Of a stretch of 17,948 nucleotides of DNA, positions 6,245 through 10,756 are shown piece by piece. Position 1 is the first letter of the stretch; every line of letters starts with the position of its first letter. The notes under the pieces were generated by a model. It was not told the origin of the DNA, searched no databases, and worked only from the letters and a program-made list of their open reading frames with translations. The position numbers were made by a program, and so were the translations under genes. This DNA is from Acidobacteriota bacterium (GTDB taxonomy: Bacteria; Acidobacteriota; Terriglobia; Terriglobales; Acidobacteriaceae), in NCBI GenBank assembly GCA_021805955.1, contig JAJZDO010000414.1, positions 1-17,948 on the forward strand, given 5' to 3'.

Positions 6245-7408
6245 TTACATCCCCGGATGCGAAAGCTGGTTTGCGTTCGGCACCAGTTCCATGTACAGCG
6301 AGCGCGACAGATTTGTCTTCCAATGGCCGGTTGCTTTCGCGTAGCCGACAAATCCAAAGAACATGCACGCCAGAACCAGCGTCACCGCCATGGGAGTGAT
6401 AACAAGGCTGCGCCAGCGGTCATTTGCCTCCGCCGCACGACGCGGTGGCAAAGAAAACTGCAACGCGTTCTGTGCCGGGCACGCGGCAATGCATTCCATG
6501 CAGGCCGCGCATTCGACAGAGCGAATCTGCACCAGCCGGTCGACATGCAGATTGGCTGGGCAGGCGCGCGCACACTTGCCGCAGTCGATACAAGCGGCCG
6601 CGTCGCGGCGAATTTTCGCCGGACTCAGCAGTGAGGCCAGCCCCATCAGCGCGCCGTACGGGCACAGATAGCGGCACCAGAAATTTCTTATCAATAGAGA
6701 GAGCGCGAACAACAGGGCGATCACGATGATCCCGGTTTCACCCAGATCGCGGAAGAAATTCAGCATTTTGACATCCGCAACCAGGCCGTAGGGCGAGTGC
6801 AGAAAGTCTGCCAGTGCCGCTGCGGACATGCTTCCAATCACATACGCAAAAAAGCCCAGCAGAACATATTTCAGGCAGCGTAGCGGTAGATCGAGCCATT
6901 TTGGAAGCTGGATGTTTCTGCCCAGAAGCTTTTGGCCGGTTTTCCACAGCAGTTCCGAGAGCGTACCGATGGGGCATAGCCAGGAGCAGAACGCCTTTTT
7001 CAGCAAAATGCTGGACAGCAGGAATGCGAGGAACAGGAACATCGCAGCCGGATGAATCTGTGGAATACTGCGAGTTTCAATCAGGAATTTCGTATTCATC
7101 ATTCCCGCAATGGGCAACCAGCCTTCCACCCCGGCAGGTCGGCTTACGTACGGTGATTTTCCTGCGGTTTCGTAGTATCGCGTCCACAGAATGAACTGAA
7201 TCCCGATCCAGAGGTTCAGCATCGCAAATATGGCCTGAACGCTGTGGCGAACCCACTGAGAACGGTCCTGAAACTGACGCCGAATCAGTTTCTTTCCAGA
7301 TCGGCGGGCAGGTTTGCCGAGGTTTCTGCTGCCGCCAATGGGAGATGCACCGGACAAATCGACAGATTTGGCATCCGCAAGAGGTTCGGTCTCAGATTGT
7401 GGGGACAT
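6245..7408 (-). CDS. Membrane-bound polyferredoxin (NosR/NapH/CcoG-like 4Fe-4S protein)
   Basis: Probable membrane electron-transfer protein, 387 aa. A basic N-terminal tail (about 20-55) precedes five to six membrane segments. Two CxxxCP motifs of NosR/NapH type are present: CSWLCP (C141, C145) and CRYLCP (C245, C249). Two complete 4Fe-4S ferredoxin motifs follow: CIDCGKCARACP (C273, 276, 279, 283) and CAACMECIAACP (C300, 303, 306, 310). A last membrane helix lies near 335-355, with a short tail ending SHPGM. It is convergent with cysE (17 bp between stops) and divergent from the Crp/Fnr gene, sharing its operator. NapH moves electrons from quinol, NosR supports N2O reductase and CcoG is a copper reductase; none of their partner genes is in view, so substrate and partner are unknown. 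The ATG has GGAAGG upstream on its strand. Confidence 0.85.
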   Translation of the reverse strand: MSPQSETEPLADAKSVDLSGASPIGGSRNLGKPARRSGKKLIRRQFQDRSQWVRHSVQAIFAMLNLWIGIQFILWTRYYETAGKSPYVSRPAGVEGWLPIAGMMNTKFLIETRSIPQIHPAAMFLFLAFLLSSILLKKAFCSWLCPIGTLSELLWKTGQKLLGRNIQLPKWLDLPLRCLKYVLLGFFAYVIGSMSAAALADFLHSPYGLVADVKMLNFFRDLGETGIIVIALLFALSLLIRNFWCRYLCPYGALMGLASLLSPAKIRRDAAACIDCGKCARACPANLHVDRLVQIRSVECAACMECIAACPAQNALQFSLPPRRAAEANDRWRSLVITPMAVTLVLACMFFGFVGYAKATGHWKTNLSRSLYMELVPNANQLSHPGM

Positions 7409-7453
7409 CCTTACCTTCCAGCTTGACTGTAACGAAGCCTCTAAAGTGAGAGC

Positions 7454-7469
7454 TGTGATCTACGTCACA
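7454..7469. promoter_or_regulatory. CRP-type operator TGTGA-N6-TCACA in the divergent promoter
   Basis: A perfect 5+5 palindrome, TGTGATCTACGTCACA, sits between the divergent polyferredoxin and regulator genes. Its centre is 7461.5. On the plus strand AATACT (7491-7496) is a possible -10 with a start near 7503, about 41.5 bp from the centre. On the minus strand TACAGT (7431-7426) could be a -10 with a start near 7419, about 42.5 bp away. Both fit class II activation by a CRP/FNR-family protein. The palindrome is seen directly; promoter elements and regulator identity are inferred. Confidence 0.72.
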
Positions 7470-7526
7470 AACGATTGCAGCCGGGGAAACAATACTGGAC
7501 TATGCTGAAAGTGGCAGGGTGCGACA

Positions 7527-8234
7527 ATGATAGACAACTGTGCCAACAAGATGGAAAACGAAGGCTGCTTCATGTGCAAGGAGAGGCATGCCGACTGGTT
7601 CTGCAATTTGTCTCCGCAGGCGCTGGTGGAATTCGAAACGCTCGGCATGCAGATGACGGTCCCTGCAGGAAGCACGCTTTTCTTCGAATCGCAAACGGCG
7701 CGCAGCGTGTACATCTTGTGCGGCGGTCATGTGAAGCTGACCACCTCTTCCAAAGATGGCAAGACTCTGTTGGTGCGAATCGCCAAACCAGGGGACGTGC
7801 TGGGCTTGAGCGCTGCCATCTCCGGGACTGTGTATGAGATCACCGCGCAGGCAATTGAGCCGGTACAGGTGAAGTCATTCCAGCGGCAGGATTTTCTCCA
7901 CTTCATCGAACACCACCTGGAAGGCAGCATGCACGCGACCAAGATGATCAACAAGGAATATCGCGATGCCTTGGGCGATGCCACGCGACTCGCGCTTTCC
8001 ATGTCGATTGCCGGGCGCGTCGCCAGGTTGCTGCTGGAGATGACATCTGGCGCGCGCGATGCGAAGCCCCGCTTTACCATGTCGCTGACCCACGAAGAAC
8101 TGGCCACCATGCTGGGCACGACGCGTGAATCGATCACACGCGTCTTGAGCGAATTAAAGCGTAAAGAGATTATTGCCATCAAAGGGGCTTCGCTGACTAT
8201 CCTTCGCAAGTCGGCGCTTGAACTTCTCATTTAG
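7527..8234 (+). CDS. Crp/Fnr-family transcriptional regulator with N-terminal cysteine cluster
   Basis: 235 aa, normal for the family. The N-terminus carries C5, C14, C17 and C26 (CxxC then x8 then C), followed by CNLSPQAL. The cyclic-nucleotide-binding-like beta roll spans about 30-140, with a further C65 in YILCGG. A dimerisation helix lies near 140-175 and a winged helix-turn-helix at about 186-230. The recognition helix TTRESITRVLSEL has R200, E201 and R205, the RExxxR spacing that reads GTGA half-sites in CRP; FNR has ExxSR. The cysteines suggest an Fe-S cluster sensing O2, NO or redox state, but their spacing differs from E. coli FNR. The start is ATG 7527 after AGGGTG; ATG 7551 is an alternative that would lose C5. 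It sits between its own operator and cydAB, so autoregulation and control of cydAB and the polyferredoxin are likely. Confidence 0.9.
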   Translation: MIDNCANKMENEGCFMCKERHADWFCNLSPQALVEFETLGMQMTVPAGSTLFFESQTARSVYILCGGHVKLTTSSKDGKTLLVRIAKPGDVLGLSAAISGTVYEITAQAIEPVQVKSFQRQDFLHFIEHHLEGSMHATKMINKEYRDALGDATRLALSMSIAGRVARLLLEMTSGARDAKPRFTMSLTHEELATMLGTTRESITRVLSELKRKEIIAIKGASLTILRKSALELLI

Positions 8235-8263
8235 ACCGTCGACCCTGGAAATGTTGCAGTATC

Positions 8264-8279
8264 CGTGACGGTCGTCACC
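8264..8279. promoter_or_regulatory. Second CRP-type operator, upstream of cydA
   Basis: GTGAC-GGTC-GTCAC (8265-8278) has perfect 5-bp arms and the same GTGA-N6-TCAC core and spacing as the site at 7454-7469. It lies 43 bp before the cydA start and 30 bp after the regulator stop, in an 87 bp intergenic region. Possible -10 elements are TACATT (8291-8296) or TATCGT (8302-8307); neither is strong. Occurrence of the same core in two neighbouring promoters beside a RExxxR-helix regulator is the main support. Confidence 0.65.
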
Positions 8280-8296
8280 GCTGTTGGAGATACATT

Positions 8297-8317
8297 CCCT
8301 CTATCGTGAGAGAGGGG
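8297..8317 (+). promoter_or_regulatory. Hairpin covering the cydA ribosome binding site
   Basis: CCCTCT (8297-8302) is complementary to AGAGGG (8311-8316), leaving an 8-nt loop. The 3' arm is the purine-rich Shine-Dalgarno (GAGGGG, 8312-8317), which ends 4 nt before the cydA ATG. The hairpin could limit translation initiation. If transcription starts inside the hairpin the structure would not form, so the start site decides its relevance. Confidence 0.4.
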
Positions 8318-8321
8318 CTGT

Positions 8322-9686
8322 ATGTCTGACGCTATATTGCTCCACCGCCTGCATTTTGCCTTTACGGTCACCTATCATTACCTGTTTCCGCAACTCACCA
8401 TGGGATTGGCGTTGCTGATCGTCGTTTTGAAGACGATTGCCATTCGAAAGAATGATCCCGTCTATAACGATGCAGCCCGGTTCTGGGCGCGTATTTTCGG
8501 AATCAATTTCATCATGGGTGTGGTCACGGGAATTCCGATGGAGTTCCAGTTCGGCACCAACTGGGCCCAGTTTTCGCGCATGACCGGAGGCGTGATCGGT
8601 CAGCCGCTGGCCATGGAAGGGGTGTTTTCCTTCTTTCTGGAGTCGGCATTTCTCGGCCTGTTCCTCTACGGAGAAAAGCGCTTGTCCCGGTGGCAGCACT
8701 GGACGGCGGCATTTCTGGTATTTCTCGGTTCGTGGATCTCAGGATTTTTCATTATCGTTACCGATGCCTGGATGCAACATCCAGTCGCCTACCGCATGCT
8801 GGCGAACGGTTCCTATGAAGTGACCAGCTTCTGGAAGTTGCTGCTGAATCACTGGGCACTGCTGCAATATACCCATAATATGAGCGGTGCTGTAGTTACC
8901 GCGGCCTTCGTCATGTGTTCCGTCGGCGCGTACTACCTGCTGGAAAACAAGTTCTCCGATCATGGTCGTGCGTTTTTGCGAGTGGGCGTAGTCGCTGGTG
9001 TGATTGCGTGCATTTTTCAGGTATTCCCGAGCGGAGATCTGCATGGGAAGTACATGGCGCATCATCAGCCGGCAACCACCGCCGCCATGGAGGGACTGTT
9101 CAATTCCTCCAAGGGCGCGCCCATGGTTCTGATGGGCCAGCCCAATGTTGAAAATCAACAGATCGACAATCCGCTCGTCGTCAATAAGGTGCTCAGCTTT
9201 TTGATTTATGGCACCACCACAGCGGAAGTGCAAGGCCTGAACACGTTTCCCAAAGACCAGTGGCCGACAAACATACCGCTGCTGTTCTTCAGCTATCACA
9301 TCATGGCCGGGCTGGGAACCTATTTCGTTGCGCTGATGGTGCTGGCTGTCGTATGGCTGTGGCGCGGGAAGTTATTCGCCGCAAAGTGGCTGCTTTGGCC
9401 GTTGATGTTGAGCTTCCCGCTGCCGTACGTGGCGAATATTGCGGGCTGGATGACGGCCGAGGTCGGCAGGCAGCCATGGCTGGTATATGGCCTGATGCGT
9501 ACGACGCAGGGGTATTCGCAATTCGTATCGACAGGCAATACTTTGTTTACGTTGCTCGGGTTCATGGGAATGTACGCGATTTTGTCGATCCTGTTTGTCC
9601 TCCTTATTTATGCCGAACTTGCGCACGGGCCCAAGCGTACACCCGCAGCCGGCATCCACACCGGCGCCCCGGTCAGTGCTGCATAG
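8322..9686 (+). CDS. cydA: Cytochrome bd-type quinol oxidase subunit I
   Basis: Heme-bearing subunit of a bd-type terminal oxidase that oxidises quinol and reduces O2 to water without proton pumping. Its 454 aa and short Q-loop match the S-type (short-loop) bd oxidases. Ligand positions resemble E. coli CydA: H19 (VTYHYLFP), E99 and E107 (MEGVFSFFLES), H185 (YTHNMSG, H186 equivalent) and M328 (SYHIMAGLG, M393 equivalent). PSGDLHGKYMAHHQP (236-250) occupies the quinol-loop start, and GWMTAEVGRQPW (375-386) is a conserved bd signature. Start ATG 8322 follows AGAGGGG. cydB begins 20 bp downstream, so the two are co-transcribed. bd oxidases have high O2 affinity and tolerate NO, fitting the NO-defence genes. 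No cydC or cydD is in the window. Whether it carries heme d or only b hemes (CIO-type) cannot be told from sequence reading. Confidence 0.96.
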   Translation: MSDAILLHRLHFAFTVTYHYLFPQLTMGLALLIVVLKTIAIRKNDPVYNDAARFWARIFGINFIMGVVTGIPMEFQFGTNWAQFSRMTGGVIGQPLAMEGVFSFFLESAFLGLFLYGEKRLSRWQHWTAAFLVFLGSWISGFFIIVTDAWMQHPVAYRMLANGSYEVTSFWKLLLNHWALLQYTHNMSGAVVTAAFVMCSVGAYYLLENKFSDHGRAFLRVGVVAGVIACIFQVFPSGDLHGKYMAHHQPATTAAMEGLFNSSKGAPMVLMGQPNVENQQIDNPLVVNKVLSFLIYGTTTAEVQGLNTFPKDQWPTNIPLLFFSYHIMAGLGTYFVALMVLAVVWLWRGKLFAAKWLLWPLMLSFPLPYVANIAGWMTAEVGRQPWLVYGLMRTTQGYSQFVSTGNTLFTLLGFMGMYAILSILFVLLIYAELAHGPKRTPAAGIHTGAPVSAA

Positions 9687-9706: not shown

Positions 9707-10756
9707 ATGATGGGCTTGATCTGGTTCTGGATTGTCGCACTGATGCTGGTGGCGTACGTGGTGCTCGACGGCTTCGACATAGGAGTGGGCATCGCACATT
9801 TTCCGGTGGGCCGGTCGCACCGGGACCGCGACACGATTCTGCGCACCATCGGTCCAGTGTGGGACGGCAATGAAGTCTGGCTGCTGGCCGGCGGCGGCAC
9901 ACTGTACTTTGCCTTTCCTCTGCTCTACGCCTCGTCGTTCAGCGGGTTTTATTTGCCGTTGATGATCGTGCTGTGGCTGCTGATCCTGCGCGGCATCAGC
10001 GTCGAACTGCGGTCGCACTTCAGCACCGTGGTATGGCGCGGATTCTTCGATGGATCGTTTGCTTTTTCCAGCATCCTGCTGGCGATTTTTCTGGGCGCTG
10101 CGTTGGCCAATGTCATCCGCGGAGTTCCGCTGAACGCTGACGGCTATTTCTTCGCTCCGTTGTGGACCAACTGGCGGCTCGGTCCCAATCCCGGAATTTT
10201 AGATTGGTACACGGTCATCGGCGGCCTGGTGGCGCTGGTCGCGCTCGGCATTCACGGCAGTCTGTATTTGGCCATCAAAACAGGGGGAGAGCTGCAGACG
10301 CGGGCGCGTCAACTGGCACAACGCGGGTGGATCGTTCTGCTGTTGCTCACCATCATCAGTTTGACGGCCACCATGGTGGTTCGGCCCGCGCTCCTGCTGA
10401 GTTACTTTCATCATCCGATCGCGTTTCTTATTCCTGCGGGTGTGGTTGCCAGCCTGTTCGGCATCCTGCTCTACTCGCGCAGTGCCAGAGATTTTGCGGC
10501 GTTCTTATGCTCCTGTTTCTATCTGGCGCTGATGCTGACCGGAGCCGCCGTGGGGCTGTGTCCAGTTCTGCTGCCGTCGAGCCGCAACGCGGCCCAGGAC
10601 ATTACCATCTCGAACTCCCTCGCCGGTCATCATGGTCTGGCGGTGGGGCTTGTCTGGTGGGGCTTCGGCATTTTGCTGGCGATTGGATATTTTGTCTTTG
10701 TCTATCGCATGTTTCGAGGCAAAGTGGTGGAAACCACGGAAGCCCACGGGGGTTGA
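9707..10756 (+). CDS. cydB: Cytochrome bd-type quinol oxidase subunit II
   Basis: Structural partner of CydA in the bd-type oxidase, 349 aa, strongly hydrophobic with eight to nine predicted membrane helices. Motifs: VVLDGFDIGVG (18-28, with D21 and D24) and GPVWDGNEVW (49-58), the CydB signature close to E. coli GPHWDGNQVW. A C-terminal HHGLAVGLVWWGFG helix follows. The first of two adjacent ATGs (9707, 9710) is chosen because AGGAG (9697-9701) lies 5 nt before it. The reading frame stays open back to 9260 inside cydA, but that stretch is a shadow. No hydrophobic CydX/CydH-like small subunit follows the gene. Confidence 0.95.
   Translation: MMGLIWFWIVALMLVAYVVLDGFDIGVGIAHFPVGRSHRDRDTILRTIGPVWDGNEVWLLAGGGTLYFAFPLLYASSFSGFYLPLMIVLWLLILRGISVELRSHFSTVVWRGFFDGSFAFSSILLAIFLGAALANVIRGVPLNADGYFFAPLWTNWRLGPNPGILDWYTVIGGLVALVALGIHGSLYLAIKTGGELQTRARQLAQRGWIVLLLLTIISLTATMVVRPALLLSYFHHPIAFLIPAGVVASLFGILLYSRSARDFAAFLCSCFYLALMLTGAAVGLCPVLLPSSRNAAQDITISNSLAGHHGLAVGLVWWGFGILLAIGYFVFVYRMFRGKVVETTEAHGG

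Follow-up and report, generated by a model that had tools for sequence, protein, structure and literature searches.

Candidate class II operators around a Crp/Fnr regulator gene next to cytochrome bd genes in Acidobacteriaceae

Soil and acid mine water harbour abundant Acidobacteria, for which we found in the open-licence literature neither a described regulon for O2 or nitric oxide (NO) nor a paper on a Crp/Fnr operator. A stretch of 17,948 nucleotides from an Acidobacteriota bacterium of the family Acidobacteriaceae (GenBank assembly GCA_021805955.1, contig JAJZDO010000414.1, forward strand; hereafter the window) brings this question into focus. In it, the gene of a Crp/Fnr regulator, here named REG, lies between a divergent gene for a polyferredoxin-like membrane protein and cydAB, the genes of cytochrome bd, with a palindrome on either side. 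Does REG read these palindromes, and what would it sense? Taken as a whole, the explanation that we favour, and consider probable, is that REG is an FNR-like activator of Acidobacteriaceae with an N-terminal cluster and the CRP code for DNA, acting at both operators.

The core GTGA-N6-TCAC occurs exactly at 7455-7468, between the polyferredoxin gene and REG (operator 1), and at 8265-8278, between REG and cydA (operator 2), so that both exact sites are intergenic and share core and spacing, as an initial annotation made from the letters alone had claimed. Two exact sites in the window compare with 0.21 expected, and 5 of 200 shuffles reach two; the longer TGTGAN6TCACA is found once against 0.01 expected. 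That the palindromes arose by chance would agree with the count at one mismatch, which is unremarkable (11 in the window against 7.0 expected, a number reached by 21/200 shuffles). The shuffles for exact sites speak against it, as do the genome-wide enrichment, the intergenic bias and the sites at cydA presented below, and conservation and promoter spacing rule it out; the probability that we leave to it is negligible. No exact FNR-type TTGAT-N4-ATCAA is present in the window, and with up to two mismatches it is found 9 times against 7.3 expected.

Operators at -41.5 or -42.5 occupy the class II activator position of CRP and FNR. At operator 1, putative -10 hexamers can be placed at the corresponding distance on both sides, in agreement with the initial annotation (Table 1). 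On the REG side, nATACT stands at 32 bp in all four syntenic genomes; on the other side the hexamer is TACAGT in three of the four and TAGAGT in one, and the distance is 32 bp in the three genomes other than the window. A further hexamer, absent from the initial annotation, lies downstream of operator 2, and the promoter of ric, an iron-sulfur repair gene, has TACTGT 32 bp from the centre of its own site. A generic sigma-70 scan of 7380-8330 returned no promoter. The class II spacing at cydA, if valid, puts the start on or within about 9 bases of the ATG, with the operator at -47 to -49, in the window (8302-8322) and at other loci (L163, L167, L174, L175, L178, L182, L184; C, G and L numbers denote contigs, genomes and loci), which predicts a leaderless or nearly leaderless cydA mRNA.

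The scan of the whole genome that the initial annotation had proposed shows a clear excess. The source genome (3.65 Mb, 88% complete) contains 65 copies of GTGAN6TCAC and 15 of a reversed-pattern control; a 98%-complete congener has 72 and 11. TGTGAN6TCACA is present in 87 of 100 genomes (its own and 99 relatives), in up to 34 copies against 1 for the control, and 13 genomes have none. The analyses of individual sites cover the 50 listed of the 65, positioned with a home-made codon-usage gene caller trained on ten window genes. Outside called genes lie 32 of the 50, though 77% of the flanking positions are coding, and the bias is due to the form GTGAY-N4-RTCAC (24/30 outside genes, versus 8/20 for the rest). 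With two distances (32 and 33 bp, centre to centre) tried on each of 64 site-sides, intergenic sites have a TAnnnT hexamer in 14/128 tests (base rate 0.0069, p 5e-13), and sites in relatives in 15/220 (p 1.5e-10). Because a -10 hexamer occurs at 32-33 bp far above background, which is the geometry of class II activators, the GTGA-N6-TCAC sites are, as judged from sequence, real operators of this type.

Related genomes retain both palindromes, the outcome that the initial annotation's reading called for. Across the four of four genomes with the polyferredoxin/REG junction the central six bases of operator 1 vary while TGTGA and TCACA are unchanged, and in a congener where the two genes are apart (L108) the site remains with the polyferredoxin gene. 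The loci of relatives are not mutually independent, several records (e.g. L105-L109, L112, L113, L115) being the same contigs as loci used earlier, and the following counts are to be read with this in mind. In 14 of 30 fetched family loci (two of the 14 from congeners; the loci come from 79/120 genomes with a match) the 250 bp upstream of cydA contain an exact site, versus 0.08 expected, and 12 of these 14 sites carry a -10 hexamer at 31-34 bp. For REG-family genes we used 47 of 50 loci, without three weak ones from outside the Acidobacteria (L152-L154): a site occurs in the 330 bp upstream at 14/47 and in the 200 bp downstream at 18/47, where about 0.2 are expected in each case. By same-contig coordinates, a REG-like gene lies within 5 kb of cydA in 7/30 genomes (G004, G008, G026, G028, G048, G137, G164); in G028 and G137 it is a paralogue at 41% or 38%, and cydA is without an exact site. 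In G164, of another genus, a regulator with CX2CX8C and the helix RETATR is divergent from cydA, and the two share a single TGTGACGTGCGTCACA between them.

Adjoining operators are frequently spaced by exactly 22 bp: among the 22 distinct pairs of sites no more than 100 bp apart in all fetched loci, some of them homologous, 12 show this distance (at L044, L118, L119, L120, L134, L014 and L215, among others), as if two dimers abutted on one face of the DNA.

REG belongs to the Crp/Fnr superfamily, with a cNMP-binding-like beta-roll and a Crp-type helix-turn-helix. Its recognition helix is of the CRP type (RExxxR), the type that goes with TGTGA-N6-TCACA, and the residues to which the initial annotation had drawn attention, R200, E201 and R205, are invariant in the family together with T204; FNR has VExxSR and a TTGAT-type site, versus RExxTR in REG. 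The five cysteines of REG all lie within residues 5-65. Three of them (C14, C17 and C26) form an N-terminal loop as in FNR, with spacings of 2 and 8 where FNR has 2 and 5, and this CX2CX8C is present in 117/120 listed homologues, one with 9 in place of 8, while the remaining 3 begin late. In the predicted fold the N-terminus of REG aligns with holo-FNR, and the top rows of VIA-align are holo forms. These features suggest that the cysteines probably hold an iron-sulfur cluster labile to O2 and NO. Of the FNR-like cluster initially annotated, the cysteines themselves (C5, C14, C17, C26) and the likeness to holo-FNR thus stand; the spacing is unlike that of FNR and C5 is not conserved. The only conserved cysteine that is a candidate for the fourth ligand, C65, is presumably at the position of R72 in FNR. 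We do not accept it as a proven ligand, as it is also kept in relatives without the N-terminal motif (C174, i.e. L002; L185, L141, L144). In L149 the N-terminal spacing differs, and within the L002 lineage CX2CX8C is retained by L186; some regulators, e.g. that of L174, were translated by hand.

Two other views of the sensor were considered. If REG were a CRP-type cAMP receptor, its cysteines would be incidental and their conservation would be left unexplained. Moreover, the Glu and Arg that presumably act in the phosphate-binding cassette of CRP are replaced by L94 and Y103 in an alignment with M. tuberculosis CRP, whose columns were read by eye. For want of these residues we reject a cAMP receptor and hold it to be very improbable, even though the helix and operator are of CRP type, M. 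tuberculosis CRP is the best sequence match in the PDB, and in M. smegmatis Crp1 acts through TGTGA-N6-TCACA sites to drive cydAB (PMC7739888). Alternatively, REG could be a thiol-disulfide or zinc redox switch, or depend on a small ligand, with its DNA specificity unchanged. Such a switch would suit a protein that has, apart from three N-terminal cysteines in a spacing foreign to FNR, only C65, a residue that persists where the N-terminal motif is lost. The conservation of CX2CX8C and the holo-FNR-like N-terminus of the model argue for a cluster instead, and three cysteines suffice in Bacillus Fnr (PMC12937710); we judge the switch rather unlikely.

Several observations weigh against REG as the FNR-like reader of these sites. 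In the protein, there is no equivalent of FNR C122, a position that Lys116 presumably takes (hand alignment to E. coli FNR), and no cysteine after residue 65; Foldseek ranks M. tuberculosis CRP and GlxR above FNR, and VIA-align gives wild-type holo-FNR 24.7 and GlxR 24.1, a difference below 1 that the tool treats as a tie. As to promoters, the -10 hexamer of REG itself is weak, and sites inside genes are also weakly enriched for the -10 spacing (2/72, p 0.045). Among relatives, an exact site is absent at 16/30 cydA loci, some of them in genomes that do have a REG match (G028, G057, G163), and from the 330 bp upstream at 33/47 REG-family loci. In four genomes (the congeners G002, G003 and G005, and G021 from the same family) REG has neither cydA nor the polyferredoxin gene as a neighbour and no site just upstream. 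Conversely, G032 has a cydA site and no REG match at 1e-35. Finally, of the five HTH_Crp_2 proteins above cut-off in the genome, four have RExxTR (REG, reg2 and those on C174 and C293); the fifth (C140, cut by the contig end) has RSRVSF at the helix position.

By the published Arg180/Glu181 code (PMC1274295), the same half-site is predicted for all four RExxTR proteins. As they share these residues, enrichment of the motif fails to identify the binder, and we reject the notion that all 65 sites are REG targets. The operators could then be real and read mainly by the paralogues (reg2, C174, C293), or jointly, REG being one reader among several, an alternative to which G032 lends weight, as does the conserved site between reg2 and ric. 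Two lines of evidence tell against it: REG-family genes repeatedly adjoin such sites and lie near cydA, down to the single shared site of G164, and the sites at ric can be told apart from the others. We consider this alternative unlikely. That REG controls itself, the polyferredoxin gene and cydAB, as initially annotated, is still probable, with the reservations that the motif is not private to REG and that autoregulation is not universal in the family.

The gene reg2, just outside the start of the window, is transcribed away from ric, and GTGATTTAAGTCAC separates the two (L050 9072-9085); its product has no cysteine at all. Among 30 ric loci (from 39/61 genomes with a match) 13 have an exact site, 13 more a site with a single mismatch, and 4 none. 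One site was taken from each of the 26 loci, the site nearest the expected position being preferred over the best-ranked one where the two differed (L207, L208, L212, L215), and compared with all 14 exact cydA sites and with 15 of 18 REG-upstream sites (left out were the distal site of L137, which has AG, L138, and L150, identical to L139). The last two central positions are A then G in 26/26 ric sites, versus 0/14 at cydA and 2/15 upstream of REG (2/29 together). The AAG centre of the ric/reg2 operator is conserved in most family loci, and cydA and REG sites favour outer T and A in the centre. We infer from this comparison of centres that there are two operator classes, and that the NO operon ric-nnrS-norB belongs mainly to the cysteine-free reg2, which would be its likelier regulator. 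Because of this centre, which differs from that of the REG and cydA sites, we reject the NO operon as a main target of REG; the NO genes, where the initial annotation had proposed to look for enrichment, thus stand behind a distinguishable operator beside another Crp/Fnr gene.

Other candidate targets were found among the listed sites. Of the six genes for universal stress proteins (Usp) in the genome, the four that encode tandem-domain proteins (C144, C234, C251) have an upstream site. At two of them a class II -10 hexamer accompanies it (L057, L074); at the other two (L078) the site is 80 and 163 bp away, and there is no such hexamer in that direction. The fetched stretch around the Usp gene on C68 contains no site even when one mismatch is allowed, and that on C120 has no exact site among those listed. 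Class II-spaced sites also precede genes for a cytochrome c, a URO-D protein, an FAD oxidoreductase and an outer-membrane protein; thiC and a 2OG-Fe(II) oxygenase gene have a site close upstream without this spacing, and further sites precede genes with no low-oxygen or NO theme. By their content alone, the bd oxidase, NO reductase, iron-sulfur repair and Usp genes would fit a response to low oxygen or NO.

In the mechanism that we infer, with REG as the binder, a cluster in place, O2 or NO as the signal and activation as the direction, the RExxTR helix would read TGTGAY-N4-RTCACA. A REG dimer on operator 1, about 41.5-42.5 bp from both divergent starts, would activate the polyferredoxin gene and REG itself, and a second dimer on operator 2 would activate cydAB. 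The same class II architecture would recur across the genome, for instance at Usp and cytochrome c genes, and the related ric-nnrS-norB operator, with its distinct centre, would probably be read mainly by the adjoining reg2. More speculatively, and with more doubt than confidence, these parts may belong to a family-wide acidobacterial hypoxia regulon, whose FNR-like sensors would use CX2CX8C and, on a neighbouring strand, C65 in replacement of C122. A cysteine-free paralogue with the same recognition residues would govern the NO operon through another centre (GTGAY-N2-AAGTCAY versus TGTGAY-N4-RTCACA), so that the specificity of paralogues would be set in the spacer and not in the half-sites.

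The gene order in the window is ric, nnrS, norB, cysK, cysE, polyferredoxin (reverse strand), REG, cydA, cydB, phosphoketolase, acetate kinase (named by sequence, without a family search) and a GH57 enzyme; ric, nnrS and norB are NO genes. The start of REG given in Table 1 is supported by congener G006, in which residue 9, the alternative start, is Ile. The closest named records for REG are metagenome-assembled genomes of Acidobacteria (95-87% identity), and the closest named isolate is Silvibacterium bohemicum S15 (56-58%). This cultured organism (L119, L120, L134, L141) has several REG-family paralogues and a cydA site at L141 6718; the paralogue nearest that cydA (L141 4001-4645) is without the N-terminal cysteine motif. 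In the searched genome cydA is divided between contigs C235 and C380, and the window extends past its contig (at 8998-17948). In G006 (L107 4722-5120) the operator is kept between REG and phosphoketolase, and the greater part of cydA and the whole of cydB are gone, by deletion or assembly error.

Table 1. Positions of operators, putative promoter elements, genes and codons of interest in the window
Feature	Positions	Strand	Remarks
Operator 1, TGTGATCTACGTCACA	7454..7469		exact match; divergent polyferredoxin/REG promoter; conserved in 4/4 syntenic genomes (window counted)
Operator 2, GTGACGGTCGTCAC	8265..8278		exact match; upstream of cydA; kept in 5/5 loci of the genus with REG in this neighbourhood (window counted)
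AATACT, putative weak -10 for REG, not TAnnnT	7491..7496	+	centre 32 bp from operator 1 centre (-41.5 placement)
TACAGT, putative -10 for polyferredoxin	7426..7431	-	centre 33 bp from operator 1 centre (-42.5)
TATCGT, putative -10 for cydA	8302..8307	+	centre 33 bp from operator 2 centre
Crp/Fnr regulator REG, 235 aa	7527..8234	+	PF00027, PF13545 and PF00325 above cut-offs
Codons of C14, C17, C26 (CX2CX8C), putative Fe-S ligands	7566..7604	+	invariant in 10/10 close orthologues
Codon of C65, candidate fourth ligand	7719..7721	+	kept in 120/120 listed homologues
Recognition helix R200-E-S-I-T-R205	8124..8141	+	R200, E201, T204, R205 invariant in 27-row family alignment
Polyferredoxin-like membrane protein, NapH/NosR-C-terminal-like	6245..7408	-	score below NapH cut-off
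cydA, cytochrome bd subunit I	8322..9686	+	PF01654
cydB	9707..10756	+	TIGR00203 and reading frame

How does this system compare with those already described? The initial annotation had seen in REG a hybrid of iron-sulfur sensing and CRP-type specificity. The CRP-type helix supports the second part, and the combination is not new in kind, being already known from Bacillus Fnr: the B. subtilis protein is an O2-sensing [4Fe-4S] protein with three cysteine ligands (PMC12937710), and the Bacillus Fnr consensus is TGTGAN6TCACA, of CRP type (PMC8151001, Table 1). However, the cluster of Bacillus Fnr is in the C-terminal DNA-binding domain, whereas the cysteines of REG are all N-terminal. In having an N-terminal cluster loop REG is like FNR of E. 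coli and A. fischeri, whose ligands are C20, C23, C29 and C122 (PMC6659574), and it differs from them by CX2CX8C and the lack of C122. The CRP-like operator is also a feature of HcpR of Desulfovibrio, which has Arg180, reads wTGTGAN6TCACAw and controls hcp (PMC1274295); in contrast to REG, HcpR is there given as being without the FNR cysteine motif. We rejected REG as an HcpR since no Prismane/Hcp gene (PF03063) was found in any of the 31 genomes searched (18 combine a completeness of 90% or more with a contamination of 5% or less; the source genome, G000, stands at 88% completeness). The paper on HcpR (PMC1274295) also notes a CRP-like motif for Crp2, the Fnr orthologue of T. tengcongensis. 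In M. smegmatis, Crp1 (MSMEG_6189) induces cydAB with cAMP from two sites that resemble TGTGA-N6-TCACA, and the protected stretch, at -52 to -102 from the cydA start point (PMC7739888), is not at the class II position, unlike operator 2. What differs here is the predicted N-terminal CX2CX8C cluster, the proposed acidobacterial regulon and the two classes of operator. A conserved class II operator together with a candidate sensor makes the missing O2/NO regulon of Acidobacteria directly testable, and the ligand set and the split between operator classes would bear on how iron-sulfur sensing and DNA specificity recombine in the Crp/Fnr superfamily.
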